Assembly (NCBI RefSeq): GCF_000196615.1
Contig: NC_014306.1
Location: 4,402,001-4,466,000 of the forward strand
Source of the DNA: Erwinia billingiae Eb661
GTDB taxonomy: Bacteria > Pseudomonadota > Gammaproteobacteria > Enterobacterales > Enterobacteriaceae
Length of the DNA stretch: 64,000 bases
Direction of reading: 5' to 3'
Position 1 is the stretch's first letter, and every line of letters begins with the position of its first letter. The notes under the pieces are model-generated. The model was not told where the DNA came from. It worked only from the letters and a program-made list of their open reading frames with translations, and ran no database searches. The position numbers and the translations under genes were made by a program. Of this stretch, positions 910 through 24,714 are shown in pieces.

Positions 910-2639
910 TGGCCGTTGAACAACTGATTACTCAGCATATTGATACCTGGACTTCCGCGCTGAAAACCCGCTCGACCGCCGGGCGTGGCAGCACCGGCAA
1001 AATCGATCTCTACGGCATTAAGAAACTGCGCGAGCTGATTCTGGAGCTGGCGGTGCGCGGCAAACTGGTACCGCAGGACCCGAATGATGAACCGGCGTCT
1101 GAGTTGTTAAAGCGTATTGCTGCTGAGAAAGCGGAACTGTTAAAACAAGGGAAGATTAAAAAGCAGAAGCTGCTGCTGGAAATTAGCGAAGAAGAGAAGC
1201 CGTTTGAATTGCCGGAGGGGTGGGAATGGATGAGGTTAGGTTTTATTACTAACTATGGCGAGTGTGATAAAGCAGAACCAACTGATGCGAATGCAGATAC
1301 TTGGATTGTTGAGCTTGAAGATATTGAAAAGAGTACATCCAAGCTCTTAAATCGAGTTAAGTTCTCTGAGCGTCCATTTAAAAGTTCAAAGAATAAATTT
1401 TATAAAAATGATGTGCTCTACGGGAAGTTACGACCCTATCTGGATAAAGTTTTGGTTGCTGATGATAGTGGTGTATGTACAACCGAAATTATTCCTATAA
1501 AGGGCTACGGTAATATTCTTCCTGATTACATTCGCCTTTTACTTAAATCTCCAAGGTTTATTGCTTACGCAAATAAATCAACGCATGGAATGAACTTACC
1601 AAGGTTAGGAACCGATAAAGCCATCCATGCAGTGGTTGAATTAACATCAATTGCAGAACAAGCAAGGATTGTGAATAAAGTTGACGAACTAATGTCCCTC
1701 TGCGACCAACTGGAACAGCAATCTCTGACCAGTCTGGAAGCCCACCAGCATCTGGTAGGAACCCTGCTGGCAACACTGACCGAAAGCCAAAATGCAGAAG
1801 AATTAGCTGAAAACTGGGCGCGAATTAGCCAGCATTTCGACACGCTATTTACCACCGAAGCGAGTATTGACGCGCTTAAGCAAACCATTCTGCAACTGGC
1901 AGTAATGGGTAAACTGGTGCCGCAAGACCCGAATGATGAACCCGCCTCTGAACTGCTAAAACGTATTGAGCAGGAAAAAGCGCAACTGGTGAAAGAAGGG
2001 AAAATTAAAAAACATCCTCCAGTTGAACCTTTGGGAGAACCTGCCTTATTACCCCGTTCGTGGTTAAATATTGTTGTTCAGGATTTTGCTGACATAAGGT
2101 TGGGAAGTACTCCTGATAGAACTGAAAAAAAATATTGGAATGGAGATATCCCTTGGGTTAGCTCTGGAGAAGTTGCAAATGAAGTTATTTTAGATACAAA
2201 AGAAAAAGTCACATCTGAGGGTTTTAAAAATTCGAGCACCAATATGATTCCAGCAGGTAGCTTACTCATGGCAATTATTGGCCAAGGAAAAACGAGAGGG
2301 CAGACTGCAATTTTAGGTATTGATGCGTGCACTAACCAAAATGTTGCTGCTTTTGTTTTTAACCGGGAGCTTGTAGATCCTGAATATGTTTGGTTCTGGG
2401 CGAAAAGTAAATATTTGTCCCATAGAGGAGATGGGCACGGAGGAGCACAACCCGCACTAAACGGGAAGAAAGTCAGAAGCTTTATCTTTCCTCTGGCTCC
2501 AATCAAAGAACAACAGCGCATCGTTAGCGAAGTGAAGCGATTTAATGATATTTGTGACACTCTAAAATCCCACCTGCAATCCGCCCAGCAAACCCAGCAG
2601 CACCTGGCAGATGCACTCACAGACGCAGCATTAAACTAA
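909..2639 (+). CDS. hsdS: Type I specificity subunit HsdS
   Basis: This is the DNA sequence-recognition subunit of the type I system, 576 residues long. It has the expected two-fold architecture: a helical repeat near residues 35-85 (LAVRGKLVPQDPNDEPASEL) recurs near 325-375 (LAVMGKLVPQDPNDEPASEL). Each copy is followed by a variable target-recognition domain (TRD), at about 95-260 and 380-560. The DNA of the TRDs (about 1200-1690 and 2040-2560) is clearly more AT-rich than the conserved segments, as expected when TRDs are exchanged between strains. The target sequence cannot be read from the protein. The start ATG overlaps the hsdM stop, and the next gene follows after 10 bases. Confidence 0.95.
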   Translation: MAVEQLITQHIDTWTSALKTRSTAGRGSTGKIDLYGIKKLRELILELAVRGKLVPQDPNDEPASELLKRIAAEKAELLKQGKIKKQKLLLEISEEEKPFELPEGWEWMRLGFITNYGECDKAEPTDANADTWIVELEDIEKSTSKLLNRVKFSERPFKSSKNKFYKNDVLYGKLRPYLDKVLVADDSGVCTTEIIPIKGYGNILPDYIRLLLKSPRFIAYANKSTHGMNLPRLGTDKAIHAVVELTSIAEQARIVNKVDELMSLCDQLEQQSLTSLEAHQHLVGTLLATLTESQNAEELAENWARISQHFDTLFTTEASIDALKQTILQLAVMGKLVPQDPNDEPASELLKRIEQEKAQLVKEGKIKKHPPVEPLGEPALLPRSWLNIVVQDFADIRLGSTPDRTEKKYWNGDIPWVSSGEVANEVILDTKEKVTSEGFKNSSTNMIPAGSLLMAIIGQGKTRGQTAILGIDACTNQNVAAFVFNRELVDPEYVWFWAKSKYLSHRGDGHGGAQPALNGKKVRSFIFPLAPIKEQQRIVSEVKRFNDICDTLKSHLQSAQQTQQHLADALTDAALN

Positions 2640-2649
2640 GGAACAGACG

Positions 2650-3756
2650 ATGCCGGTTCATCATGCTATCTGGCGGGTAGGGGACAATCCTCAGCCGCTG
2701 ACCATCAGCAAACTTGCGAGTGAGCAACTGCTGGAGAGGATGATTTTAAACGACCCGACAATCCTCTCCGATCAATGGATGATTATCGGCCATCAGGAAA
2801 ATACGCTCGATAAAGGGCGTATCGATCTGCTGGCTATCGCGCCGGATGCCTCGCTGATCCTGATTGAGCTTAAGCGCGACCGTACGCCGCGTGAAGTGGT
2901 TGCTCAGGCGCTCGATTACGCCTCTTGGGTGGATGACTTAACCGCCGATCGCTTGTCGCAAATTTATGAAAAATTCTCCGGCGGCGGTAACCTGGGCGAC
3001 GCGTACAGACAGCGCTTCAATACTGAGCTGGAAGAAGAGTCGCTCAACCAGTCGCATCAAATCATCATTGTGGCAGCAGAACTGGATCCGTCCACCGAAC
3101 GTATTATCGATTACCTGAGTAAGAACGGCATCTCGATTAACATCCTGTTCTTCAAAGTGTTCCAGCACGGTGACGAGCAGTTCTTAAGCCGCACTTGGCT
3201 TATCGATCCGAGTGAGACACAAACCAATGCCGCACAAGCAGTTACAAGCGTAAATGGCAGCACTAAAGAACCTTGGAACGGAGAGTTTTACGTCTCCTTT
3301 GGTGATCCACAAAGCCGCGTTTGGGAAGAGGCTCGCAATTACGGATTTATCAGCGCAGGCGGTGGCAGTTGGTACAGTCAAACTTTAAAGCAGCTCCAGC
3401 CAGGCGACCGTGTCTGGGTCAATATCCCTAAAACAGGTTATGTGGGCGTAGGTCTGGTACAGAGCGCCGTTGAACCAGCTAGCAGCTATATGGTTAACAC
3501 CGACAATGGCGAAAAACTCGCAATGGACGTGCTCAAATTTGGTGCCTGGTATCGCGATAACGCCGATAATCCTGATAAATCAGAATATTTTGTCTCGGTT
3601 AAATGGCTTGAAACTCGCAGCGAACAAGAAGCGGTGAGCGAGGTCGGCTTCTTCGGTAATCAGAATACCGTGTGTAGGCCGACAGCACCGAGATGGCGTC
3701 ACACTATCGAGAAATTGAAGCGATCTTTCGTAAACTGGAACGCAGAATGTAATTAG
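2650..3756 (+). CDS. NucS-like PD-(D/E)XK nuclease appended to the hsd operon
   Basis: A 368-residue probable DNA endonuclease, co-transcribed with hsdMS (10-base gap; TAAGGA ribosome site overlapping the hsdS stop). The nuclease core is visible: Asp59 in GRIDLLAI, Glu73 and Lys75 in LIELKRD, and a downstream QxxxY (Gln86, Tyr90), as in RecB/NucS-type PD-(D/E)XK enzymes. After a linker at about 195-212, a C-terminal domain (about 213-365) contains WEEARNYGFISAGGG and GDRVWVNIPKTGYVGVG. This pattern suggests a PUA-fold (EVE/ASCH-like) nucleic-acid-binding domain; that assignment is inference. It is not HsdR, because it is too short and has no helicase motifs. Alternatives are a stand-alone repair nuclease or a modification-dependent restriction enzyme. 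Confidence 0.8.
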   Translation: MPVHHAIWRVGDNPQPLTISKLASEQLLERMILNDPTILSDQWMIIGHQENTLDKGRIDLLAIAPDASLILIELKRDRTPREVVAQALDYASWVDDLTADRLSQIYEKFSGGGNLGDAYRQRFNTELEEESLNQSHQIIIVAAELDPSTERIIDYLSKNGISINILFFKVFQHGDEQFLSRTWLIDPSETQTNAAQAVTSVNGSTKEPWNGEFYVSFGDPQSRVWEEARNYGFISAGGGSWYSQTLKQLQPGDRVWVNIPKTGYVGVGLVQSAVEPASSYMVNTDNGEKLAMDVLKFGAWYRDNADNPDKSEYFVSVKWLETRSEQEAVSEVGFFGNQNTVCRPTAPRWRHTIEKLKRSFVNWNAECN

Positions 3757-4678: not shown

Positions 4679-5242
4679 CTAAACTTTACTTTTATATAGA
4701 ATTGCCTTTTCTATTTTTTTCAACTCGCCTAACATCTTATTACCTACTGAGTTATCAGAAGCAGAAACCCCTAAAAAAGAGTAGATATCCAAATAAGTTC
4801 TATTTTTAATGGCTTTTGGGTAAAGAGATTTAGGATTTGCTTTGTAGAAAGTAATATCTACCGTTATTTTTTTCTCTTTAAACCACTCGCTTAGTCCCGC
4901 ATAATTCCCAAGCATAGATATCCTTGATACATCGGGCGCAAGAAACGGGATGCCTGATATTAAAGGCCCTTCATACATAACTTTAGATTTTTCACCAAAA
5001 AAAGCTTTTTGGGGTAGCTTCTCACTGGCTTCAAATGTGATATCTTTAGCTGCACTTTTACCTATATTCTTTATAACTAAATTGAGTACCGTTGGTGCGT
5101 GCTTATCCTGCTCAATGTAAACAATAATATCAGGAGAAGAGTTCTCTTTATACACCAAGTAACTAATTAAAGATGAAGCAATGGCGATTATCATCATAAT
5201 TACATTCACCATAAAGCCACCAAACTCCATTTCATCCATCAT
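4679..5242 (-). CDS. Membrane-anchored hypothetical protein (satellite cargo)
   Basis: I do not recognise this 187-residue protein. It has one hydrophobic N-terminal segment (about residues 9-30), then a mostly beta-type region around residues 36-75 (VLNLVIKNIGKSAAKDITF). That region resembles immunoglobulin-like adhesion/CARDB-style folds in pattern only. The C-terminal third is charged and helical. A likely layout is a single-pass membrane protein. It is AT-rich relative to both the chromosome and the satellite core, and it sits between the replication gene and the att site, a usual place for late-acquired cargo. Function is unknown; involvement in phage exclusion would be a guess from location. 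Confidence 0.7.
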   Translation of the reverse strand: MMDEMEFGGFMVNVIMMIIAIASSLISYLVYKENSSPDIIVYIEQDKHAPTVLNLVIKNIGKSAAKDITFEASEKLPQKAFFGEKSKVMYEGPLISGIPFLAPDVSRISMLGNYAGLSEWFKEKKITVDITFYKANPKSLYPKAIKNRTYLDIYSFLGVSASDNSVGNKMLGELKKIEKAILYKSKV

Positions 5243-5433: not shown

Positions 5434-7764
5434 TCAGATGGCTGCCGGGTCATCACATTTTGGCAGCCAGTCGGTGTTGCTCTCCTCCGTCAGATCCAGA
5501 TTGGTCTGGATCCCCTGCTTGGTTCGCCGCTTAAGATAGCTCAGCCCGTATTCCCGTAAAATTCCCTCAAGAGCCAGACCAAACATTTTCATGCTCAGTG
5601 GGTTTTTATAGCCATTGGCTTCCATGTAGCACAGGTAAGCATGATACAGATAGCGGCGTGGCTGTGCGGGACGGATACTGGCATTACCCATATAAAGCGC
5701 GTTCGGCTCCGGTGCGGTAAACAGGTAGCCACAGAAATCCACCATAGGATCGGCGTCGCGTTTGATGCGCATCGCCTCCCCGGAGTTCTGCTGAGACTGA
5801 AGAAGCGCGCGGGCGTCCTGCGGCTGGCTGAACCGCTGCATCAGCTGGCGCACGATAACGGCCATCTCTCCCCGGATTTTCTCTTTCAGCTGCGGATCGC
5901 GTTCACTGGCCGCAACAATTTCTGGAAAGTGCAGAATGACCCGGCGGCGTGACACCCCGCCGCTGCGGTCAGTGAAGCGCATCGGGTTGTTGTTCACCGC
6001 CAGAATAACCGCCGGGATATGTGTTGAATAGGCATCACGGTATTTCGGGTCAACGGATACCGCATCGCCGCCAGTGATGGCCTTGATGCCCGCACCGTCA
6101 CCGCTCCACTTCTCCTGGTCGGGCAGGATAATCAGTGAATAGCCAATCACCGCCGCGCGTTCCCGTGATGACTCCAGCGTCTCGATGGTCGCAGAGGTGG
6201 TGTTATCCGTTCCGGCCAGCATGGTGGCAATTTCGGCCATGATACTTTTACCGCTGCCGCCCGGACCTGTCACCTCAAGAAACAGCTGCCAGTCAAAGCG
6301 GTTTGCGAGCACCATGAACAGCGCGGCCAGAATGATATCGCGCTTCTCTGCACAGCGACCTGCGGCCCGGTCCAGCCACTGCCAGAAGTGCGGCGCGTGG
6401 CTTTCCAGCGTCTCACCCGTCACCGGCGGGGTAAAATCAACGTCACTGACGGTACGAAGCCAGTAGTCTTTTCTGTGCGGGCTGAACGTAGCGGTGCGGG
6501 TATCGAGTACGCCGTTGCGAAAGCCAATGAGGCGGCGGGCAGGTTCTGCCTGCTGCGGCACAATGAGTTTTAGCGTGTCGACGATTCCCGCCACTTTCGT
6601 AGATGAAAAGCTTGCCCCTACCTTAAGGAACAGCGCCGCCACCTCACGGCGAAACTGATTGCCGGGCATCACCTTCCACGCGCCGGATTTGTAGCGGCTG
6701 AGAACTTCACCGCTTGCGTCCACGGCCAGCCGGTCACGATAGTGTTCAGACACGCGCTCCGCCTTGTCGCTGACGCTCATGGCCGAAAATTCCGCCTCGC
6801 TCATGGTGTTAAACGGGCTGGTCCTGACCGGAGCGGCCGCAACGCTCAGCGCGTGTCGGGTTTCATCCGCGCCGTTCAGAACAAAAGCATCGTTCCAGTC
6901 ACCAAATACCGGCGGAAGGGCAACGTCGGCGTTACAGGCTTCAGCTGCTCTGCGTGCTTTCGTCTGTCCGTCGCCGTTCAGGTCACGGTCTGCGGCTATC
7001 AGCAGCGGCAGTGTGGCGTGTTTTTCCCGGACAAGGCCTGCCAGGGAAAGGAGATTAACGGACGACAGCGCCACCCACACCTCATCGCCGGTGAGGTTAT
7101 GCACCGTCAGGCCGGTGGCGTAGCCCTCCGCCAGCCAGATACGCTTTGCCGGTTTACCACTGCTGAGAACGTGGCAGGCACCATTCACCTGCCCGCCCTT
7201 CAGCGTGCGCTTTTCACCTGCGGCGTTAATCAGCTGAACGTTAACCAGTTCCCCGCTCATATCGTACAGCGGCACCACCACGTCACCCGGACGGTAGCTG
7301 ATGGTCGCAACCTTCTGAGGCTTCGCAAGTGTCAGGGCACCATGCTGCGGCCAGCCCTTGCGCGACAGGTAGGCATTACCGGTGACGTCTTTCGCCGTAC
7401 TGACCAGCTGCTGCGCCAGCGTGATGGACGCAGCGCGCGCGGCTTCATCATCAGCCGTGTTTATGGTCAGGGATTCAGGCTGCACCGCGGGCAAAGCGCC
7501 GCTCAGTTCGCTGACGCGCGCGGCGGCCTCGCTGAGCGAAATACTGAGCGCCCTTTCCACCAGGGTGAGGCCGTCACCGGCCCCGCAGTGGTTGCAAATC
7601 CACGTACCTCGCCCATCCTTGTCATCAAAGCGAAAGCGGTCGGTGCCCTGACAGACCGGACAAGGCATATGACGGTTCTTCATCACCTTAAGACCAAGGG
7701 CCGGGAGGATGCGGGGCCACTGGCCCCTTGCGGCGGCAGCCGCTTCTGTTACGGTCATTTTCAT
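5434..7764 (-). CDS. P4 alpha-like primase/helicase
   Basis: This 776-residue replication protein matches the length of phage P4 alpha (777). It combines primase, 3'-5' helicase and origin recognition. Visible parts are an N-terminal zinc-binding motif (Cys35, Cys38, Cys57, Cys60 in CPVCQG...CNHCG), a Toprim-type primase segment with WLAEGYATGLTV, and a superfamily-3 helicase with Walker A GPGGSGKS near residue 500. The C-terminal part should bind origin iterons; candidates lie at 9622-9726. It starts at ATG 7764 behind GGGAGAG and is the last gene of the left operon, which is transcribed leftward. A 453-codon frame antisense to it is a shadow. Confidence 0.93.
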   Translation of the reverse strand: MKMTVTEAAAAARGQWPRILPALGLKVMKNRHMPCPVCQGTDRFRFDDKDGRGTWICNHCGAGDGLTLVERALSISLSEAAARVSELSGALPAVQPESLTINTADDEAARAASITLAQQLVSTAKDVTGNAYLSRKGWPQHGALTLAKPQKVATISYRPGDVVVPLYDMSGELVNVQLINAAGEKRTLKGGQVNGACHVLSSGKPAKRIWLAEGYATGLTVHNLTGDEVWVALSSVNLLSLAGLVREKHATLPLLIAADRDLNGDGQTKARRAAEACNADVALPPVFGDWNDAFVLNGADETRHALSVAAAPVRTSPFNTMSEAEFSAMSVSDKAERVSEHYRDRLAVDASGEVLSRYKSGAWKVMPGNQFRREVAALFLKVGASFSSTKVAGIVDTLKLIVPQQAEPARRLIGFRNGVLDTRTATFSPHRKDYWLRTVSDVDFTPPVTGETLESHAPHFWQWLDRAAGRCAEKRDIILAALFMVLANRFDWQLFLEVTGPGGSGKSIMAEIATMLAGTDNTTSATIETLESSRERAAVIGYSLIILPDQEKWSGDGAGIKAITGGDAVSVDPKYRDAYSTHIPAVILAVNNNPMRFTDRSGGVSRRRVILHFPEIVAASERDPQLKEKIRGEMAVIVRQLMQRFSQPQDARALLQSQQNSGEAMRIKRDADPMVDFCGYLFTAPEPNALYMGNASIRPAQPRRYLYHAYLCYMEANGYKNPLSMKMFGLALEGILREYGLSYLKRRTKQGIQTNLDLTEESNTDWLPKCDDPAAI

Positions 7765-8865: not shown

Positions 8866-9084
8866 TCAGCAGTCGGTGAGGGAAATACCGGCACGGGAAA
8901 GGTTTTCCACATCCGGCTGACCGGATACGGCGCCGGAGCACGCCACGCTGAACGCGATACCGGTGCCCTGAAAACGCTGAGCCTGCCCCGGTTCATCCAC
9001 CTCAGCGGCGACTGCCAGCGCCAGACTTTTGGCATCCTCTACGGAGAGGCGGTGTGTCACGCCGCCGATGGTCAGCATAATCAT
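8866..9084 (-). CDS. Small hypothetical satellite protein
   Basis: A 72-residue protein ([21 protein letters not shown]...) following the AlpA-like regulator, with an ATGA 4-base overlap that indicates translational coupling. It has no motif I can name. It precedes the immunity leader and is probably in one transcript with the regulator. Confidence 0.6.
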
Positions 9085-9347
9085 GACAAGCGCTCCTGAC
9101 CGCGCGCGGCGATACGATCATTCATCCAGCTGCCAACCTCACTGGCAACCCACGCCACGTTTTTGCCGCCCAGTGATATCTGCGCCGGAAATGCATCACG
9201 AGCGATGAGGTCGTAAACGGTGGAGCGGGATAAACCGCAGAGATGCATCACTTCGGGCAGGCGAATAAAGCGTTCCTGTACAGGCAGGGATGCAGGTAAA
9301 GCGGGTGCCGCAGGGGCGGATGAAGATGCGGAAATACTGTTATGCAT
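9081..9347 (-). CDS. AlpA/Vis-family transcriptional regulator
   Basis: An 88-residue DNA-binding protein with the AlpA-type helix-turn-helix FIRLPEVMHLCGLSRSTVYD (about residues 27-46), followed by a basic C-terminal wing. P4 Vis, a member of this family, represses the left promoter and acts as excisionase. The N-terminal 25 residues are an Ala/Pro/Ser-rich low-complexity tail. It starts at ATG 9347 with GAGAGG 6 bases upstream, and TATACT (9420-9415) is a plausible -10 element. It likely switches the satellite between integrated and replicating states. Confidence 0.85.
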   Translation of the reverse strand: MHNSISASSSAPAAPALPASLPVQERFIRLPEVMHLCGLSRSTVYDLIARDAFPAQISLGGKNVAWVASEVGSWMNDRIAARGQERLS

Positions 9348-9886: not shown

Positions 9887-10642
9887 ATGACAGATACAAA
9901 CACACCTGATGATTCAGATATCACCACTTCATTGCCTGCCGCCACCCAGCAGACGCTCAACAAGCTGAACCTCACTAAAGCCACCTGGCTTGATACGCGC
10001 CGCAGACAAAGCGAGGGCGAAGCCATGCTGACCACTATCCGGCAGCGCAGGCAGGAGACTGAAGATGAAGCAAAGGCGCTCAACGACGAATGGCGGCAGC
10101 TGTTCCGGGACAATAACGGCGCAATGACGCCCCGTATGAAGAAGCTGCGCCCTGAGATTGCGTTGGGCCATGAAACACTTAGCGAATTCGATTACCTGAT
10201 AGCCGAACAGGAATACAAAAACAAAGCGCTCATGGCTGATACCGCGAATATGGCAAAGGACTATATCAACGCTCACAACGATTTCACTGAGGGGTATTCG
10301 CTTCATCTGTGGGAGCAGTTTATGGCGGCAAACGGGCAGGAGCTGCTGCAATTACTAGGCCTTATGAAAACCACCCTGGGTCGCAGGGCAAGCGCCGTCA
10401 TCGGCGTGGTGAACTCAGTCAATGACCCTGAATCGATTCTTAAACAGTTTATCGATGAGAAAATCACAAAGCCTGCGCTGGATATGAATTCCGCGCCTGA
10501 AAATGACGCGCTGCTGAAGCAGACGGGAGCATACCCGGCACATGCTGCCTCTGTCAGCGTTCATAACGCCCCCAGCCCGGCAGCGCTACACAAACTTCGT
10601 GTTCAACGTGAACGGGCCGGTGGTAAGGAAAAAGCACAATGA
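9887..10642 (+). CDS. Sid-like capsid size determination protein
   Basis: A 251-residue highly helical, coiled-coil-rich protein, close in length to P4 Sid (244) and first in the late operon behind the Delta-type promoter. Sid forms an external scaffold that makes the P2-like helper build small capsids fitting only the satellite genome. The assignment rests on size, helical composition and operon position, because Sid proteins are poorly conserved. AGGGAAC precedes ATG 9887. The stop overlaps the next gene by 4 bases. Confidence 0.65.
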   Translation: MTDTNTPDDSDITTSLPAATQQTLNKLNLTKATWLDTRRRQSEGEAMLTTIRQRRQETEDEAKALNDEWRQLFRDNNGAMTPRMKKLRPEIALGHETLSEFDYLIAEQEYKNKALMADTANMAKDYINAHNDFTEGYSLHLWEQFMAANGQELLQLLGLMKTTLGRRASAVIGVVNSVNDPESILKQFIDEKITKPALDMNSAPENDALLKQTGAYPAHAASVSVHNAPSPAALHKLRVQRERAGGKEKAQ

Positions 10643-11187
10643 AAAAACCACAGGAAGCTCTGAATCAGTATCTGACCGCCGCGCAGGAATGGCAGACGCT
10701 GCGCAGCAGTCGCGAAGTTGCCAGTCAGCAGCTGGCAGCCTTGCTGGCGTCCGGGGAGAAGCCAGCTGGTTACGCCATTCAGCTGGATAAGGTGCGCGAA
10801 CGGCTGGCGGTGCTGGAGTGGCAGATTAACTGTGCGGCGCGTGAGGGCGTTTATACGCAAGGTATGGTGCTCGATGCCTGCGTGGAAGACGGTCTGAACG
10901 CATTTATGGCTGATAACGGCAGCGCACTGACAACCGCCCTTGCACCCTTCCTCATCGGACGCGGCGGCCTGGAAATGGCAGCGCGGGTCTTACGGACGGC
11001 ACTTGCCCGTCAGGCAGAAGCGAACAGACCGCAACCGGCAGAAGCCTACCGGGACATTATTGCCGGGTCAGGCCTGTTTCCTGACGGAACTATGGCTGAA
11101 GACTGCCAGCAGGGTTATACAACAGCACAACACTTTCGTTTCCAGCGCCGCCTGTCAACGCTGGATACCACTAAGGGAGGCGCGTGA
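10639..11187 (+). CDS. Psu-like polarity suppression / capsid decoration protein
   Basis: A 182-residue helical protein resembling P4 Psu (190) in length and layout: an N-terminal coiled coil, then LNAFMADNGSALTTALAPFL, compared with LNDFMQQHGTALAAALAP as I recall for P4 Psu. Psu inhibits Rho-dependent termination and decorates P4 capsids. It overlaps the sid-like gene by 4 bases and ends 1 base before the delta-like start. The gene order sid-psu-delta is my reading of this locus. Confidence 0.75.
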   Translation: MKKPQEALNQYLTAAQEWQTLRSSREVASQQLAALLASGEKPAGYAIQLDKVRERLAVLEWQINCAAREGVYTQGMVLDACVEDGLNAFMADNGSALTTALAPFLIGRGGLEMAARVLRTALARQAEANRPQPAEAYRDIIAGSGLFPDGTMAEDCQQGYTTAQHFRFQRRLSTLDTTKGGA

Positions 11188-11188
11188 C

Positions 11189-11461
11189 ATGGCGCTGAAA
11201 TGCCCGGAGTGTGGCGCGGTAGCCCACACGCGCACCAGCGCCTATGAATCAGCCACGGTGAAAAGGACCTGGTATCAGTGCCAGAATATTGAGTGCTCAT
11301 GCACCTTCACCGCACTGGAGAGCGTGGAGAAGATAATCATGAAGCCTGGACGGACAAACGACCTGGGCGGGCTGCCTGAACCACCGGAAAGAAAGCCACA
11401 GGTTCTGGGGCGCTATGGTTCAGGAAGTCGCCTTTCAAAGCGCCAGCAGATCCCCGTCTGA
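11189..11461 (+). CDS. Delta/Ogr-family zinc-finger late transcription activator
   Basis: A 90-residue activator with the Ogr/Delta zinc motif: CPECG near the N-terminus, then YQCQNIECSCTF. These proteins contact RNA polymerase alpha and activate late promoters of the satellite and its P2-like helper. Its likely target is the TTGT-N12-ACAA site 1.4 kb upstream, giving autoregulation of the operon. ATG 11189 is chosen because GGGAGG lies 8 bases upstream. The frame remains open further 5' within the psu-like gene, but that part is not coding in this frame. Confidence 0.88.
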   Translation: MALKCPECGAVAHTRTSAYESATVKRTWYQCQNIECSCTFTALESVEKIIMKPGRTNDLGGLPEPPERKPQVLGRYGSGSRLSKRQQIPV

Positions 11462-11506: not shown

Positions 11507-12062
11507 ATGCCCTTTATCTGGCTGGCCTGCCGTTCTGTGTCGGTGCATGACTATGCCGCATGAAAACGCATGACTTTATGCAGTTGGTATTCCCCATCTG
11601 AAGCCTGCAGCAGCTTGCATTCAGAGTGTTCATGCAGGCGCATGAAAACCAGCCCATAAAGTGGGCAGGCGTGGCGGGGGTACGAGCGCGCGCAGTGGAT
11701 ATAGACATGCCTAGTTAGTCTCAATTCTTAGCAAACCTTAGCTTTAGAGATTTATAAGCCACCACAAAGATTACACAATGCATTATCCTTGATCGGGCTA
11801 TTCTTTAGTGCATGAAATTCCATTAGAAGGCGGTTTCTATTGATAAAGTTAAGGGGGTGAGATAAAAAGGTATATCTGCTGGAGTCAACTAACCTTATGA
11901 AAGATAGCATACGAACGTAAACGCATAACTCAGGATATGCTCATGATTAGACTCATCTTCTGAGCTCATCTCTGCTTAGGGGGCTTTAAACCATACAGCA
12001 AAGAAAGCTCACAAGATAAAACTTCCTGGTACTAGTTAAATATTGATATAGAGGGAATTTTA
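11507..12062. other. Non-coding stretch between late operon and TIR gene
   Basis: No gene is supported here. The first part (about 11540-11700) holds short CATGA/GCATG repeats and the candidate cos sequence. After about 11710 the DNA becomes AT-rich, continuous in composition with the TIR gene, and should carry its promoter. GAGGGAATTTTA at 12052-12062 is the TIR gene's ribosome-binding site. Confidence 0.5.
11668..11686 (+). other. Candidate cos (packaging) site
   Basis: GGCGTGGCGGGGGTACGAG resembles the 19-base P2/P4 cohesive end as I remember it (GGCGAGGCGGGGAAAGCAC): 12 of the first 13 bases agree up to the pyrimidine/purine variant at position 5. It is followed by an alternating GCGCGCGC tract. 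It lies next to the late genes, where cos lies in P4. The match comes from memory and was not computed. Confidence 0.45.
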
Positions 12063-14537
12063 ATGATAAAAGCATTCTTATCACATTCAAGTAAAGATAA
12101 AGAACATTACGTGCGTAATGTTGCAAATTGGCTGGGAAAGGAAAACATAATTTATGATGAGTTTACTTTCGAGGAAGGAGAGAAAACACTAGATCAAATT
12201 ATGGAAGGGCTCGGAGAATCAGAACTCTTTGTGCTTTTCATTTCAAATAGCGCGCTAGAGTCAAAATGGGTAAGAAAAGAAATAATAGAATCCAAAGCTC
12301 TTTATGATGCAGGTGTGATTTTAAAAATATTCCCAATAATTATTGATAGCAATATAAACCATGAAGATAAAAGAATACCTGCTTGGTTAAGAAAGCATTA
12401 TAACCTACAGCCAATTACTCGCACAAAAATAGCAGCATCAAGAATAAAGAATCACCTTTATAAAATATCTTGGCAAAAACACCCTAAACTTGAAAAAATA
12501 AACTCTTTATTTGTAGGCAGAAACGAAAAGCTAGAGGAGTTCGAGGAAAGAATTAATGACTATGCAAAGAAAAAACCAACTGTAATTTTTTCTTCCGGGC
12601 TTATAGGCATTGGAAGAAGAACATTCCTTTCCAAAGCATTAATAAAAAGCAACATTCAAAAAAGCCAAATAACCCCTTACGCAATATATCTCGATAGGAA
12701 TGAATCAATTGAGGACTTTATACTTAAACTTAATGACTTGGGGATTATTGACATTAACGAAAGCGCGCTATCACTATCTGAAAAAAGCATTGAAGAAAAA
12801 CAAGAAATTATAATTAAAATATTAAATGAAGCATATAAAGCAAAGGAAACAATATTCTTTCTAGATGATGGATGCATCATAAACTACAAAAGAGAACTAT
12901 CTAGTTGGTTCAGAACAATGGTTGAAAAGTGTAATAATTTCAACTATCCAGTCCTTTGCATTGCATCAAGATATAGAGTTAACTTTTCAAACAGGCCGCG
13001 AGATGACAGATTTTATTTCATTGAACTTTCAGAGCTAAATACAAAAGAAAGAAAAAGATTATTATCTCAACTTCTTGAAATTGAGGAAATCCGTGATTTA
13101 GATACATCAAACTTTAACAATATATGCGACTTACTCACTGGCCTACCTGAACAAGTAAAATTCGCCATTGAATTAATAAAAGACAAAAGCATAATACCTT
13201 TTGAAAATAAATTTCCGATGCTTTCCGACTTTAACAACGATAAAGCATCAATACAGTTACAACGTTATGTTAAAAACGAAACAGTATTGGATTTTGTGAG
13301 ATTACTAGCGCAATTTGAGGTGATAACTTTAGATTTTATTTTTTCCATAATTGATAGGGATGAATGTCTACCTATCCTCGAAGAATTGATTGCAGAAAGC
13401 ATTTGTGAATTAGTTGGCTCGGATGGAGAAATGGTAAGACTAAATGATATCGTCAGAGATTACATAAAAAGGAATAGGCTAAAAATAAATGAAGACCATA
13501 ACAAAAAGTTAAATTCAGTCGTAAGAAATATTGTTAATAATGAAGAACTTATAGAGGCAAACTCATCAGTTTACGTATTCACAATTAAAGAAATGCTGAA
13601 GTCAGAGGAATACATTGACCCTAAATACCTCATACCATCACATTACCTAAGGTGCATGAAAGATCTTTATAACACCAAAGGATCACTAGATAAAGTTATA
13701 TCATTAGCTGATGCTATCCTACAAAAAGAAAACAACATGGAAAGCGGTGTGGTTCAAGATGTCAGATATTACCTCTGTCTTGCCTTAGCTAAAAAGTCAG
13801 ATCGTAGACTATTGGCAGAAGTTCAAAAAATACGCGGAGACGAACATAAGTTTCTATTGGGTTTTTATTTCAGAAAATGCGGAAGATTTTCTGACGCCTT
13901 GAAACAGTTTGAAAGTATAATAAATGCACCTTATGTCGACACACGAGCTAAACGCGAACTTGTACAAGTTTACACGCATCTTGAAGAATACGATAAAGCC
14001 TTAAATTACGCCAAGAAAAACTACGAAGAAAATAGAAGTAATCAATTCCATTGCCAAGCTTATTTCAACTGCCTTATAAATTCTCAGCACAGAGTAGAAA
14101 ACGACAATTCCACGCTTAAGGAAATAATAAACATGTTATTGGCCATAGACTCTGAGCAGTCTAACGAAATGGCAAAAATAGCATCCGCGATGTATGCTGC
14201 AAAAATAGAAAATGATGAAACAAAATCTATTGATGAGATTAATGATTGTATTTCCATGCATCCTGAAAGTCCTTACCCTTTACTCGCAAAGTGTGATGTT
14301 GGACTCAAATTTAAATCAAGTGATATTATCGCTGAAGCATTGCAGTCTTTGGAAAAAATGAGAAGAAGAAAAGTAGTGTCGGAACGAACATTAATAACCT
14401 ATCAAGCTTATCTAGCAGCCTTACAAGGTGATGAGAATGGTGCTAATAAGATTATAGCGGGTGAAATCTCAAGGTATCCTCATGAAGCCAAGGAAAGAAT
14501 ATTTAAAAGAATAAAGGATTGCGCCGGGAAAAATTAA
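12063..14537 (+). CDS. TIR-NTPase-helical repeat protein (putative NLR-like anti-phage protein)
   Basis: An 824-residue three-part protein. Residues 1-135 are a TIR domain: AFLSHSSKDKEHYV opening, and SKWVRKE with Trp69 and Glu73 at the position of the catalytic NADase glutamate. Residues 148-400 look like a STAND/AAA-type NTPase: VGRNEKLEEF entry motif, a degenerate Walker A GLIGIGRRT (179-187, Arg in place of the usual Lys), Walker B FFLDDG (265-270), and CIASRYR as a sensor. The C-terminal half is TPR-like helical repeats (for example FRKCGRFSDALKQFESII). The layout is that of an NLR: sensor repeats, NTPase switch, TIR effector. The gene is very AT-rich, in the P4 cargo position between the late genes and int, with its own ribosome site and terminator. 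Anti-phage function is inferred. Confidence 0.85.
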   Translation: MIKAFLSHSSKDKEHYVRNVANWLGKENIIYDEFTFEEGEKTLDQIMEGLGESELFVLFISNSALESKWVRKEIIESKALYDAGVILKIFPIIIDSNINHEDKRIPAWLRKHYNLQPITRTKIAASRIKNHLYKISWQKHPKLEKINSLFVGRNEKLEEFEERINDYAKKKPTVIFSSGLIGIGRRTFLSKALIKSNIQKSQITPYAIYLDRNESIEDFILKLNDLGIIDINESALSLSEKSIEEKQEIIIKILNEAYKAKETIFFLDDGCIINYKRELSSWFRTMVEKCNNFNYPVLCIASRYRVNFSNRPRDDRFYFIELSELNTKERKRLLSQLLEIEEIRDLDTSNFNNICDLLTGLPEQVKFAIELIKDKSIIPFENKFPMLSDFNNDKASIQLQRYVKNETVLDFVRLLAQFEVITLDFIFSIIDRDECLPILEELIAESICELVGSDGEMVRLNDIVRDYIKRNRLKINEDHNKKLNSVVRNIVNNEELIEANSSVYVFTIKEMLKSEEYIDPKYLIPSHYLRCMKDLYNTKGSLDKVISLADAILQKENNMESGVVQDVRYYLCLALAKKSDRRLLAEVQKIRGDEHKFLLGFYFRKCGRFSDALKQFESIINAPYVDTRAKRELVQVYTHLEEYDKALNYAKKNYEENRSNQFHCQAYFNCLINSQHRVENDNSTLKEIINMLLAIDSEQSNEMAKIASAMYAAKIENDETKSIDEINDCISMHPESPYPLLAKCDVGLKFKSSDIIAEALQSLEKMRRRKVVSERTLITYQAYLAALQGDENGANKIIAGEISRYPHEAKERIFKRIKDCAGKN

Positions 14538-14543
14538 TTTTAA

Positions 14544-14577
14544 ATAAATGAAGGCATCTGATAATGCCTTCATTTAT
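14544..14577. terminator. Convergent terminator between TIR gene and integrase
   Basis: ATAAATGAAGGCAT and its exact complement ATGCCTTCATTTAT form a 14-bp stem around CTGATA, with A/T runs on both sides. It can end transcription of the TIR gene and also of the oppositely oriented integrase gene. Confidence 0.85.
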
Positions 14578-14593
14578 ATGATTTTTTATTCAA

Positions 14594-15847
14594 TCATTTT
14601 TTTGCATAGTCAAATGGTGAGATATAGCATTCCCTATTTATTGAAAGATAGTCTGCCCACCATTGGACCATTAAGCATCTTTCATCCAAATGCTCTGAAG
14701 TATGAATGTAAGCAGCGCGTACGTTATTACGCTCAGAGTGGCTCAACTGCCGCTCAATCGCGTCATCACTCCATAAGCCTGACTCACCCAGCGCGCCTCG
14801 TGCCATTGTCCTGAAGCCATGCCCGCAAACCTCGGTCTTCGTGTCATATCCCATAGCACGCAGGGCATTGTTAACCGTGTTTTCGCTCATGACTTTTTTA
14901 GGATCGTGATCGCCGGGGAAAAGTCTCTCGTTGTCACCGCTTAATTGCTTCAACTTTTCCAGGAGGGCTAAAACCTGACTGCTTAGCGGTACAAGATGCT
15001 CCTCTTTCATTTTCATACCACGGTGGGAGTAACGAACTCCTTCAATCTCTTTGCGTTGTGCAGGAACACGCCACAAGGCCCTTTCAAAATCGAACTCATC
15101 CCACCGGGCAAAGCGGAGCTCACTGGAGCGGACAAAAGTCAGTAATGAAAGCTCGACGGCTATGCGCGTCATGATACGCCCACGGTATGCGGCAAGGCGC
15201 TCAAGAAATTCAGGAAAACCGCTGAAGGGTAATGCGGGGTAATGACGAGCCTTGACCGTAGAAAGTGCCCCGGCCATATCAACAGCAGGATTAGATTCAA
15301 TGTAATCGTTCTGCACGGCATAGCGCATTATCGCCGTAACACGCTGCTGAAGACGCTGAGCGACATCGTGCCTGCCACTGGCATCAACGGATTTAATAGG
15401 AGCTAACAGCTGACTGGTTTTCAGCCTACGAACGTCCGCCAAACCGATATGAGGGAAAATATACAGTTCAAGGTATCGCATAATCCGTGAACGATGGTCA
15501 TCACTCCAGCGCTTATTACTGGCATGCCATTCGCGGGCGATTGTTTCAAAAGTGTAAGCCCCCGCATTTTCAGCCTGGGCTTCTTTCTGTTCAGCTTTGG
15601 GGTCTATCCCCTGCCCTAACATCTTTTTAGCTTCATCACGCTTAGCACGTGCCTCAGCAAGCGTTACTGTCGGCCAGACGCCAAAGGCAAGCCGGTCTTC
15701 TTTTTTATCGGCTGGCCGTCGGTACTTCATACGCCAGTACTTTGATCCTTTTGTCGTGACCTCAAGATACAAACCGCCGCCATCAGCCATTTTATAGGTT
15801 TTTTCCTTAGGCTTTGCAGTGTCGACCAGGCGGGCATTCAGCTTCAT
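14594..15847 (-). CDS. int: P4-type tyrosine integrase
   Basis: A site-specific recombinase of the P4/phage-integrase family, 417 residues from ATG 15847. It begins MKLNARLVDTAKPKEKTYK, the typical N-terminal arm-binding segment of these integrases. Catalytic motifs are visible: Arg in LLTFVRSSELRFARWDEF, HxxR in GHGFRTMARG, a later LSHSE, and the Tyr nucleophile in AAYIHTSEHLDER. The frame stays open to 15961, but that upstream part crosses the arm repeats. It is transcribed toward the satellite interior, starting 165 bases from the tRNA 3' end, which is the standard arrangement for P4-like elements at leuX. No ribosome site is obvious, so the exact start is uncertain. Confidence 0.93.
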   Translation of the reverse strand: MKLNARLVDTAKPKEKTYKMADGGGLYLEVTTKGSKYWRMKYRRPADKKEDRLAFGVWPTVTLAEARAKRDEAKKMLGQGIDPKAEQKEAQAENAGAYTFETIAREWHASNKRWSDDHRSRIMRYLELYIFPHIGLADVRRLKTSQLLAPIKSVDASGRHDVAQRLQQRVTAIMRYAVQNDYIESNPAVDMAGALSTVKARHYPALPFSGFPEFLERLAAYRGRIMTRIAVELSLLTFVRSSELRFARWDEFDFERALWRVPAQRKEIEGVRYSHRGMKMKEEHLVPLSSQVLALLEKLKQLSGDNERLFPGDHDPKKVMSENTVNNALRAMGYDTKTEVCGHGFRTMARGALGESGLWSDDAIERQLSHSERNNVRAAYIHTSEHLDERCLMVQWWADYLSINRECYISPFDYAKK

Positions 15848-15850
15848 TTT

Positions 15851-15897
15851 GGGGGCACATTTCTTATCGAAGTGGGGATGCCCCCAATTATGCCCCC
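15851..15897. promoter_or_regulatory. Putative Int arm-type sites, right arm
   Basis: ATGCCCCC occurs at 15878 and 15890 (12-bp spacing), and GGGGGCAC at 15851 in the opposite orientation, all between the integrase start and the attachment site. The pair mirrors the left-arm pair at 4226 and 4238. Confidence 0.55.
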
Positions 15898-16011
15898 AGC
15901 GGGGTCTGGATTGCAACGGATATGCTCGGACGATGCCGGATGATAAAATCATCCTACACAATGATTTTTAAGGTTTTTTTTGACTTCCCCGGACGGGGAT
16001 GGACAGGATAC

Positions 16012-16031
16012 TGGTGCCGAAGGCCGGAATC
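16012..16031 (-). repeat. tRNA-proximal satellite attachment site
   Basis: TGGTGCCGAAGGCCGGAATC is the 3' end of the tRNA-Leu gene and is repeated with two differences at 4151-4170. Integration here leaves an intact tRNA gene. Confidence 0.75.
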
Positions 16032-16096
16032 GAACCGGCACGCCTCGCGGCGGTTGATTTTGAATCAACTGCGTCTACCGATTTCGCCACTTCGGC
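16012..16096 (-). tRNA. leuX: tRNA-Leu (anticodon CAA), leuX-type
   Basis: An 85-nt tRNA read from the minus strand: acceptor GCCGAAG/CTTCGGC with encoded ACCA; D-arm GGCGAAATCGGTAGACG; anticodon arm GTTGA-TTCAAAA-TCAAC (anticodon CAA); a long class II variable arm CCGCCGCGAGGCG; and T-arm GCCGG-TTCGATT-CCGGC. The long variable arm and CAA anticodon identify leucine. Homologous leuX genes are common integration sites for P4-type elements, as here. A promoter precedes it at 16125-16152. Confidence 0.97.
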
Positions 16097-16124
16097 ACTG
16101 AAGGGTATGCGGAAAACGTTGGGG

Positions 16125-20122: not shown

Positions 20123-20382
20123 AAGCGTATTTTAATAAAATCCTCATACTTTTCTGAGCGAAAATTTAACATCCTCCTAATAAGATATCTCATCATTACT
20201 GCGGGTATTCAGACGGTTGAATACTATCGCAGATCAATCATTATTCATTAGTGCGTTTACAATCCAATTATTATCATTTTTAATACCCGATTAATGTGTT
20301 CGTAAATTGTTTAAAAAATAAGGCGAGATAACTCATTGCTAATGCGCAATGCAAAATAAAATAAATGCGAAGGAATATTATC

Positions 20383-23300
20383 GTGAGAAAAAGGACCGCT
20401 GCGTGTTACTGCACACTGTTCGCGTGCGTAACGTCTTATGCAGGCATCATGAGACAGGATGTTGATCTCCAAGACTATCGTGATTTTGGCGAAAACCTCG
20501 GCAAGTATGCTGTGGGCAATACCGACGTTAATGTCTACACCACCGATGGCCTGCTTGCGGGGACGTTGAATTTCCCTATGCCAGATTTTGGGGTCTCCGC
20601 TTCCCAGGGTTACGCGACATTAATTTCCCCTTCCTATGTGGCCGGCGTACAACATAACGGTGGCTATAAAACGGTAAGTTTTGGTAATGGTGCCAAATAC
20701 GGCGCCAGCTATAAATTAATTAACCGTAATGAAATGAGCTCGCTGGATTTTCATGTCCCACGCTTAAACAAAGTGGTGACGGATACCGCGACAATTCCCT
20801 ATGTCACCGGCACAGAATTAACAGATACCAGCCGCTACACCTGGTACGTCCGTGTCGGTACCGGCGTCCAGAAACAGGTCGATGCCGACACTCAAACCGT
20901 CGTTAAGTTGGCCGATGCGTACACTTACCGCACCGGCGGCACGATTCTTAATCCCAGCTTCTCCAGCGATTCTCTCTCCTGGACCACCTATGCGCCGACG
21001 GATGCCCGCGTCACGCCGCTGGATATTGGTGCGCAGACTGGCGACAGCGGCAGTCCGGTGCTGGTTTATGACAACGTTGAGAAAATCTGGAAACTCGCCG
21101 CCGTCACCGCAACGATATCAGGCCGCTATCCCTACGGCCTGAACACCAATTCAATCTATATCCAGGATGCGTTTGTTCAACAAATCATCGCCAACAATAC
21201 CGATGCGGATGTTACCGACAGCAGTGCAGATGGCACGCTGCACTGGGGCTCAGACAGCATCACCCAGGGAAGCAACAGCTGGTCATGGCATGGTGTCGAC
21301 GCCGCGTTACCCGCCAACGCCACAAACGAGGAGCTGGATGCGTCCAAAGATCTGCGCTTTAACGGTGACGGCGGCACGCTGGTGCTGGATCAGGCGGTCA
21401 ACCTCGGCGCAGGAAAGCTGCAATTTTCCAGTGACTACTTCGTTAAATCGGCCGATGGCGCAAACAGCAGTTGGGTTGGCGGCGGTGTTGAGGTTGATAC
21501 CGGTAAAACCGTGCGCTGGCAGGTTAACGGGCTGGCCGGTGATGCCCTGCATAAAATTGGTGCAGGTACGCTGTACGTCAATGCCAGCGGGAGCAATGGC
21601 GGCAGCCTGAATACCGGCGACGGTACGGTGGTGCTCGATCAACAGGCGGACGCAGAGGGCAACAAGCAGGCGTTCTCCTCGGTGACCCTCGTCAGCGGAC
21701 GCCCGACGGTGATTCTGAAGGATGCCGATCAGGTGGCGGCAGATAATATCTTCTTCGGTTATCGCGGCGGCACGCTCGACCTTAACGGCAACAGCCTGAC
21801 GTTCAAAAACATCAATCATACCGACAGCGGTGCCACGGTGGTGAACCATCATTCCGCCAGCCCGGCCTCGATCACTCTGACCGGATACAGCCGTGATGAC
21901 GTGCCTTTTTACCGGTTCAACGGAAGCAATCACACCGGAACCATCGGGTCGCTCTATGTTTACAACAACCCTTACACCAAAGACACCGAATATTTCCAGC
22001 TTAACAAGACGTCCTACTGGTATTTCCCGACCGATAAAACCAGCACCGATACCTGGATCTATTTAGGTACCGATGGCGACGCCCTGATCGAAAGCCGGCT
22101 GTTACAGATGAACCAGATGGTTTTTCGCGGCTTTCTGGGTGGCGGTGGCGACCAGCAAGGCGAGTTGAACGTCAATGTCAGTGTACCCGGCTCCTCTGCC
22201 GTAACCGCGTTCACTGGCGGCATGGATCTGAAGGGAAATCTGAACGTCTCGCAGGGTACCGTCCTGCTCTCGGGCCAGCCGGTTCCTCATGCGGCCGGCC
22301 TGGTGGTTAATGACGACTGGACAACCTCCCGCTTCAGCGCCGACCTTATTTCCGTTAGCAAAGACAGCACGTTGCAGGTCGGCGAGTATGCCCAGGTTGA
22401 GGCGAATATCGCTGCGGACGACTCATCTAAAGTAATGCTGGGCTATAACGCCAGCTCATCTGAGGCGGACCGTGTCTGGCGCTGTTATGCGGTGATCAAT
22501 GCCGACATCTCCACCTGCAGCCAGCCACTGCGCAGCGCGACTGAACTGGCTGCGCTGGCTGCCAGCACCGTCACTGGCGATATCACGCTGGGCGAAAACA
22601 GCCTGCTGACGCTCGGTAAAGTGAACTATCAGGGAACGATTGCGGCGGCCACCAGCAGCAATATGACTATGGACAGCGGCGCGTTCTGGCAGTTGAGCGG
22701 CAACAGCCGCATTGGGTCTTTGAAAGCCGCCTCCGGCTCCACTATTTCTCTGCTGGCTGCGGATGGCGTGGCCTGGTCGCCAACCCTCTTTAATCTGGCA
22801 TCGCTGGATGCCAACGGGCTGACGATTAGCCTCGCGGCTTCGCCTGCCACCGAGCAGGGCGACAAAGTGACCATTGAGGATGCCGCAACGGGCAGTAATA
22901 ACATTCTGGATATCATCGTGCTGGCCGATTCGGCAGAACCGGTGAGGTTGTTGAATGACATTGTGTTGCTGGATGCCCCAGCCGGCACGGCGCATGATTA
23001 CTTTACCGTTCCCTCAGTTGCCCGCGGCTTCAGCCTGTATACACCGGACTATCAGGTGGTCGACAAAGATAACCGCGTGCAATGGTTGCTGGCGCATAAC
23101 GCCGTGGCAGAGCCGGAAGGGGTTGATGAGGTTGAAACACCGGTTGAACCTGAAGTGCCGGTGGTTCCGGTAACTCCGGTTGAACCTGTAACACCAGTGA
23201 TTCCAGTTGAACCTGAAACGCCTGCTGAACCTGAAACGCCAGTGGTTCCGGTAACTCCGGTTGAACCTGAAACACCAGTGGTGCCGGTAACACCAGCGGA

Positions 23301-24714
23301 ACCTGAAACGCCTGCTGAACCTGAAACACCAGTGGTTCCGGTAACTCCGGTTGAACCTGTAACACCAGTGATTCCAGTTGAACCTGAAACGCCTGCTGAA
23401 TCTGAAACGCCAGTCAATCCGGTAACACCTTCAGAACCTGAAACCTCGGTTGAACCTGACGCACCAACTGAAGCCGAAACACCGGCAGAATCTGAAGCGC
23501 CAGTGGTTCCTGAAACCCCAGCCGAACCTGAAGCATCTGCGGATCCCGCAACACCTTCAGAACCTGAAGCATCTGCGGACCCCGTAACACCTTCAGAACC
23601 TGAAACCTCGGTTGAACCTGACGCACCAGCAGAAGCCGAAACACCGGCAGAATCTGAAGCGCCAGTGGTTCCTGAAACCCCAGCCGAAACTGAAGCATCT
23701 GCTGATGCAGAAACCCCTGCCGAACCTGAAGCGGCGAAGTCCTCATCGCCAGAAGAAGCGGCTAAACCCGAAGCACCTGCCGACCCGACTCCCGACAAGC
23801 CTGCCAGCTGGTTTACCGTCGAGGATAACAAGCCGTTGATCCGCGATACCCGTGCGTTACTGGCTTCCCGCCAGTATGTCTTCAGCGAAGCAATAAGCCA
23901 GCTGCATGGACGCGCCTCGCTGCTGCGCAATGCGCCGCAAAAAAGCGGTGAATGGGTGTCGATTGAGCAGAACAAGGGCAGCTTCGAAGGATTCACGGTG
24001 AATCAGCAGTCTCTGAACCTCGGCTGGGACAGCGTGCAGGGGCAGACGATGTTCGGCTTTAATGCCGGCTACACCCAGGGCACCACCAAGGGTAACGGGC
24101 AGGAAACTCACCGTATGGCGAGCGTTGGCGCTGACTACTCCTGGTCGTCTCCGGCTGGCTGGTTTGTTGATGCCGCGGTGCGCTATATGCACCTCAGCCA
24201 GGATCTGACCTTCGATCCGGTGCTGGATATTCACCACGGTAAAGCGAGAAGCCATATCCTGGCCGGCAGCGTTAAAAGCGGCTATCAGTTCACTGCCGAT
24301 CGCGGCTCGCTGTTTATCTCGCCGTACGTAGGTTTGAGTGGCGGCAGCCTGTCTGGCTTCAGCCTGAAGAGCGACAGCGCGCAGGTTGGCCTCAGCGCCA
24401 GCACGCCTTATATGGCTACCGCCGGGCTGGAGTTGAAGAAGCGTGGCCTGTGGAAGACGAATCCGGATGTGATGTTAACGGCGGGGGTTGAATATCAGTA
24501 TTCGCCGGGCAAAGCCGGTTCCAGCCTGACGCTTTCAGACAGCCAGCAGCAACGCAAATTCGGCGCGTTATCGGATAACCGCTACCGTGTGCATATGGGT
24601 GCCGAAGGCAAGATTGCCGATAACTGGTCGCTGGAAGGGAAATCCAGAAGCAGCATGGGTGGCACCTTCCGCACCGACTACAGCGGCATCGCAGGCATCA
24701 ATTACCACTTCTGA
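20383..24714 (+). CDS. Autotransporter with S6 serine protease domain
   Basis: A type Va secreted protein of 1443 residues. I chose GTG 20383 because AAGGA lies 8 bases upstream; the ATG at 20365 has no ribosome site. After a short signal peptide ([19 protein letters not shown]), the passenger begins with a peptidase S6 domain. The candidate triad is His91 (GVQHNGG), Asp122 ([10 protein letters not shown]) and Ser222 (GDSGSP), as in SPATE/IgA proteases. A long beta-helix-like passenger follows, then a Pro/Glu/Thr/Val repeat linker (about 908-1140), and a C-terminal 12-strand beta-barrel ending in the outer-membrane signature Phe (INYHF). It is probably an adhesin/protease; the substrate is unknown. 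The short signal differs from the extended signals of classical SPATEs. Confidence 0.93.
23104..23800 (+). repeat. Coding repeats in the autotransporter linker
   Basis: Imperfect tandem units encode variants of EPETPxxPVTPVEP. Larger duplications are visible: a segment near 23431-23545 recurs 162 bp later (23593-23706), and one near 23155-23220 recurs near 23330-23400. The unit lengths are multiples of three, so copy changes would keep the frame and alter the linker length. Confidence 0.85.

Follow-up and report, generated by a model that had tools for sequence, protein, structure and literature searches.

We analysed a stretch of 64,000 nucleotides from the genome of Erwinia billingiae Eb661 (NC_014306.1, positions 4,402,001-4,466,000, forward strand), referred to here as the window, and all positions are counted within it unless a locus label is given. 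The gene of interest encodes a protein of 824 residues that combines a TIR domain, an NLR-like NTPase core and TPR-like repeats, and it lies in the psu-int cargo slot of a P4-like phage satellite. An original prediction, made from the sequence alone, had read it as a single-gene, abortive-infection defence analogous to plant NLRs. The features of the gene are given below, with residue conservation taken from a family alignment of 75 proteins, drawn from the 120 listed of 659 matches and thinned by hand for size (the truncated P0008, P0092 and P0094 were among those omitted).

12050..12055, + strand: ribosome binding site AGAGGG, 7 bases 5' of the ATG, spotted by eye
12063..14537, + strand: TIR-NLR gene, an intact open reading frame (ORF) with an ATG start, 824 aa
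12063..12467, + strand: TIR domain, about residues 1-135
12279..12281, + strand: codon of E73, counterpart of Cat1 E74, kept in 75/75 aligned relatives
12489..13487, + strand: NB-ARC/STAND-like NTPase and winged-helix region, about residues 143-475
12597..12623, + strand: Walker A position GLIGIGRRT, residues 179-187, with R185 in place of Lys and R186 in place of Ser/Thr
12855..12872, + strand: Walker B position FFLDDG, residues 265-270, at the end of model strand 264-268
13140..13148, + strand: GLP motif, residues 360-362, which we take to be NB-ARC-like; G360 and P362 each in 75/75 relatives
13440..13448, + strand: LND, residues 460-462, presumably where NLRs carry the MHD motif; D462 in 75/75 and N461 in 64/75 relatives
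13635..14528, + strand: TPR-like helical repeats, about residues 525-822
14544..14577, + strand: intrinsic terminator, a stem of 14 pairs (4 G-C) followed by a T-rich tail

Domain architecture and the TIR active site

The order TIR, STAND NTPase, TPR is present in a single chain, the last two domains being assigned by fold. Pfam recognized the TIR domain (TIR_2, E 1.3e-11; ThsB_TIR, 9.4e-6; both above cut-off), which confirms the TIR domain first proposed, with its glutamate motif SKWVRKE (residues 67-73). The other two domains that had been proposed, an NTPase core with Walker B FFLDDG and a TPR-like C-terminus, were upheld by structure and not by profile: no NTPase family was among the Pfam matches of the protein, and the TPR matches in the C-terminus were weak, every one under cut-off. 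In the predicted model (mean predicted local distance difference test score, pLDDT, 86) a TIR fold is followed by an NB-ARC/Apaf-1-like core and then by helical repeats, and in a fold search with this model the core resembled NB-ARC/Apaf-1/MalT-type STAND domains and the C-terminus resembled TPR proteins. The core thus has the NB-ARC-like fold with winged helix expected of NB-ARC/AP-ATPase-type STAND NTPases. The Walker B acid, D268, is kept in 74/75 aligned relatives, and S302 is conserved in 72/75.

The active site of the TIR domain was compared with that of the CARF-TIR protein Cat1, in which E74 lines the NADase site according to PMC12162218. Residues S7, H8, S9, S10, D32, S67 and E73 align opposite seven Cat1 NADase-site residues, five of them identical and two (S9 and S10) being Ser for Asn, and all are kept in the 75 relatives except S9, which is kept in 74. 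This conservation supports a working NADase. In Cat1 itself, alanine mutants at six of the nine site positions were impaired in causing growth arrest, and D33A reduced in vitro activity only partly, as described in PMC12162218. Cat1 differs in that it is activated by cyclic oligoadenylate through its CARF domain and has no STAND core (PMC12162218). A table of TIR systems in PMC10952713 places TIR-NLR under 'Depletion of NAD+' (nicotinamide adenine dinucleotide).

The expression signals and base composition are as had been read from the sequence. The gene contains 33.3% guanine plus cytosine and carries its own ribosome site and terminator. The window as a whole has 54.0%, while psu and the satellite primase gene reach 59.4% and 59.8%, respectively. 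The folding energy of 14538-14600 is -20.2 kcal/mol (z -5.4), with none of 200 shuffles equally stable; the pattern scan, which returned 3 terminator-like sites against 2.4 expected, is weak evidence by itself.

Relatives and the satellite slot

The protein matched the PADLOC model for TIR-NLR, PDLC03015, with 1737 bits across all of its residues (1-824/824), the E. coli member scoring 1879, so that comparison with a defence catalogue gave the system a name. According to the main text of Rousset et al. 2022 (PMC9122126), anti-phage systems cluster in a hotspot at the psu-int locus of P4-like satellites, as the original prediction had held, and TIR-NLR is among the seven systems validated. It is encoded by a single gene, whose TIR protein has a STAND NTPase in the centre and TPRs at the C-terminus, and when expressed from its own promoter it shields laboratory E. 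coli against several phages, P2-like phages included. When 18 systems encoded by P4 elements were tried in E. coli C, none but TIR-NLR gave protection against P2 and another four P2-like phages (PMC9122126).

The likeness to this E. coli system extends from the full-length match, equal length and domain order to the location in the psu-int slot at tRNA-Leu. Identity to the TIR-NLR protein from E. coli PMV-1 is 83% (686/824), and the gene of that strain sits between psu and int, adjoining tRNA-Leu; the psu-int slot was occupied in all four E. coli loci inspected, psu being annotated as partial in one and int frameshifted in another. Megablast found no E. coli copies. A more sensitive search located them in 26 of the 5426 complete genomes of this species, with an identity to the present gene of about 77% in DNA and 83% in protein. 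Residues 1-67 of the TIR domain (12063-12263) are identical to the E. coli protein despite the 83% overall, and the first bases of the gene carry silent DNA differences.

Among the matches listed, named relatives include proteins of Cronobacter malonaticus (84%), Klebsiella pneumoniae (83%) and Pectobacterium (79%). The gene is rare in the genomes sampled, with matches at E 1e-10 in 2/196 related genomes (this gene and one at 27%), and in the order, with 2/394 genomes at E 1e-30 (this gene and one at 55%). A scan of genome contigs gave five relatives at 37-57% identity, of which only L004 was taken further; no phage records and five plasmid records matched. When the NTPase part alone was used as query, a TIR Pfam domain was present in 113 of the best 120 of 340 matches, and none was listed in the other seven (633-802 aa).

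Two PDB entries, 9m0n and 9umd (10 chains, each described as 'Tetratricopeptide repeat protein' of 824 aa), provide a solved relative: 9m0n_A matches residues 1-824 with 1546 bits and also has a GRR P-loop, and it is another family member than this protein. Neither entry was among the best 50 matches listed of either fold search. More distant parallels are the SIR2-STAND protein Avs5 and the plant TIR-NLR RPP1. The former likewise joins an N-terminal NADase to a STAND core and a C-terminal repeat sensor, but has SIR2 instead of TIR and a canonical Walker A, GPAGSGKT, in which immunity depends on the Gly and the Lys (PMC12931631). RPP1 (7dfv, 7crc) shares the order TIR then NB-ARC, with a fold match across residues 1-393, at only about 10% identity in the fold alignment, and its sensor is an LRR rather than a TPR domain.

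The genes around the TIR-NLR gene identify the slot.

5434..7764, - strand: P4 alpha-type primase-helicase (phrog_2249, 8.7e-195; Pfam Zn_Ribbon_Prim, Toprim_3, D5_N)
9081-9347: AlpA-like regulator
9887..10642, + strand: late gene that we take to be sid-like from its position (phrog_6165, 9.9e-69; PHROGs label 'Psu-like')
10639..11187, + strand: psu, polarity suppression (Pfam Psu, 3.8e-64)
11189..11461, + strand: Ogr/Delta zinc-finger gene (Pfam Ogr_Delta, 3.8e-19)
14594..15961, - strand: P4-type integrase (Pfam Phage_integrase, Phage_int_M, Arm-DNA-bind_3)
16012..16096, - strand: tRNA-Leu (CAA), presumed attachment-site gene (ARAGORN), adjoining int as in E. coli

The order sid-like gene, psu, Ogr/Delta, TIR-NLR, integrase, tRNA-Leu is that of the P4 psu-int cargo slot, and the gene does lie between the satellite late genes and int, as originally placed. 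Here psu precedes ogr/delta (10639-11461), whereas ogr/delta precedes psu in the E. coli loci L008, L019 and L020. A search for the left end of the satellite found no exact repeat of at least 13 bases of 15941-16100, either within the window or in 16 kb of DNA preceding it, and 20-mers starting at 16005-16039 were unmatched there with up to 3 mismatches. An ORF of 187 aa (4679-5242, - strand), in AT-rich DNA beside the primase gene, gave weak matches only, to PHROGs of unknown function.

Elsewhere in the host genome the P2 proteins GPO and GPA each have two places (L012, L013, L017, L018), paired 6.4 and 9.2 kb apart; two P2-like prophages are therefore likely, and these are possible helpers for the satellite. 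In and near the window, a type I restriction-modification set comprises hsdR, upstream of the window, with hsdM and hsdS (window 46-3756 and L010 12912-15362); the gene after it matches the PADLOC candidate defence family PDC-S11 and has a weak NucS-like region, and upstream of the restriction genes, at L010 1063-10707, lie ORFs that by eye resemble type VI secretion genes. At 20365-24714, near yjgR-like (HerA_C) and DUF445 genes, a protein of 1449 aa is encoded whose Pfam matches, to Peptidase_S6 and beta-solenoid domains, mark it as an IgA-protease-type autotransporter.

The arginine P-loop

The sequence GLIGIGRRT falls between model strand 174-179 and helix 185-195, where a Walker A motif belongs, and departs from the canonical GxxxxGK[ST] in that GRR replaces GK[ST]. 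The original prediction had noted this correctly, adding that it set the protein apart. In the alignment, however, R185 is present in 75/75 and R186 in 72/75 relatives, and when the Lys position of the pattern was left free 122 of 130 relatives fitted it, with Arg there in all 122. Seven of the remaining eight have GRR and P0122 (633 aa) has no readable P-loop, giving Arg at the Lys position in 129/130 overall. Four distant homologues (24-27% identity) all have Arg as well, with GRRT in Zymomonas, GRRS in Enterococcus, GRTR in Phocaeicola and GRRT in a relative from the host family; the Phocaeicola homologue retains Thr following Arg. In an alignment read by eye, Asp stands opposite D268 in three of the four and is lost in the fourth (L002). 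The P-loops read among the five plasmid matches were those of H2, H3 and H4, to the exclusion of H1 (47% identity) and H5 (22% coverage).

An unusual Walker A peculiar to this gene is thus ruled out by the 75-protein alignment, the 130-relative count and the four distant homologues. Because Arg is common to relatives and distant homologues alike, the altered P-loop is, on these comparisons, old and maintained rather than a sign of decay, and it is no distinguishing mark of this gene. A literature search that took in no supplements and few subscription papers found no published description of a family-wide Arg P-loop, and no paper naming 9m0n or 9umd; in the main text of PMC9122126 the word 'Walker' is absent and 'P-loop' occurs once, in a reference title.

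Judged by its predicted fold, the protein would be NLR-like in its working, with a modified P-loop. The Arg-Arg pair suggests that any nucleotide would be held otherwise than in NLRs with a Lys P-loop, and perhaps bound without turnover. More tentatively, the Arg P-loop might mark a wide bacterial branch of NLR-like sensors activated without the ATP switch that in plant and animal NLRs depends on Lys, with nucleotide permanently bound or none, and with the ligand alone driving TIR assembly; the small sample behind this idea covers Gammaproteobacteria, Alphaproteobacteria, Bacillota and Bacteroidota.

Proposed mode of action, alternatives and significance

We consider the gene, with a probability of about 0.9, to be a member of the TIR-NLR anti-phage system with a role in defence, carried as single-gene cargo of a P4-like satellite; phage protection has been demonstrated for a relative and would hold here by analogy. 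In the scheme proposed in the main text of PMC9122126, infection is sensed by the TPRs, the STAND core oligomerises and NAD+ is degraded by the TIR domain. Along these lines, the C-terminal TPR-like array would meet a phage component, upon which the NB-ARC-like core would open and oligomerise, and the clustered TIR domains would cleave NAD+, so that the infected cell stops growing or dies before phage release (abortive infection). We infer NAD+ depletion to be the probable effector step; NAD+ cleavage and abortive infection are reasonable for a TIR-STAND-TPR protein in the P4 slot, of a type that protects against phages. The original prediction is accordingly confirmed in its observations and partly supported in its interpretation.

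Several points weigh against this account. NAD+ degradation by TIR-NLR is itself a proposal in PMC9122126, which also reports in its main text that the system restricts P2 and reduces P4 titres, a cost to the satellite that carries it. The mapping onto Cat1 covers seven of its nine site positions, the other two (K121 and Y122) belonging to the partner TIR, and at two of the seven it has the Ser for Asn replacements. The altered Walker A could mean that a nucleotide switch is absent. The pattern scan found 11 promoter-like sites against 11.5 expected, and therefore no promoter stands out upstream of the gene. Finally, the annotation splits four of the 26 copies in E. coli into two or more pieces (L020; hits H23, H24, H25 and H31); some copies thus look broken, and the gene would be lost at times.

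These last copies, together with the AT-rich, foreign character of the gene, are what could be said for the view that the gene is decayed, or of an addiction type, and plays no part in the defence of this host. We regard that as very improbable given a full-length gene with its own ribosome site and terminator, 83% identity to the E. coli relative, and all seven TIR site positions kept. It is also improbable, if less so, that the TIR domain, instead of depleting NAD+ itself, acts as in Thoeris and produces a signalling nucleotide by which a separate effector is activated. The ThsB_TIR match above cut-off and weak matches to the PADLOC ThsB models would accord with this, and plant TIR-NLRs signal via a TIR-made nucleotide. 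Thoeris, however, has a separate ThsA effector gene beside the TIR gene, and a search of the slot between ogr/delta and int found, among other ORFs of at least 80 aa, a single one, 88 aa long and overlapping the integrase gene; the published TIR-NLR, moreover, is one gene and functional in E. coli K-12 (PMC9122126, main text).

A further alternative overlaps with the account we favour and differs solely in how the core works: the NTPase core would bind no nucleotide, and ligand on the TPR array alone would drive oligomerisation. The replacement of both the Walker A Lys and the Ser/Thr by R185 and R186 in nearly all relatives examined is what one would expect of such a core, as is the loss of the Walker B acid in L002. 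On the other hand, D268, G360, P362, D462 and S302 are conserved at the frequencies given above, which suggests that the pocket is still in use, the distant homologue L014 retains Thr after Arg, and the predicted fold is that of a full NB-ARC-like core. We hold a core without nucleotide to be unlikely.

Given a close published relative in the same P4-satellite slot, the finding is sound but already known: the gene adds one more member to a system that already has a name, experimental tests and a solved structure. It extends the published TIR-NLR cargo to another bacterial genome, in the same satellite slot, and to a host that also carries genes of apparently two P2-like prophages. Since TIR-NLR blocks several P2-like phages but not 186cIts (PMC9122126, main text), whether these prophages escape it is a fair question. 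The gene also raises the specific question of how a core of the NLR type operates when Arg stands where Walker A has Lys, which can be tested directly with the help of the E. coli relative and the solved structure.
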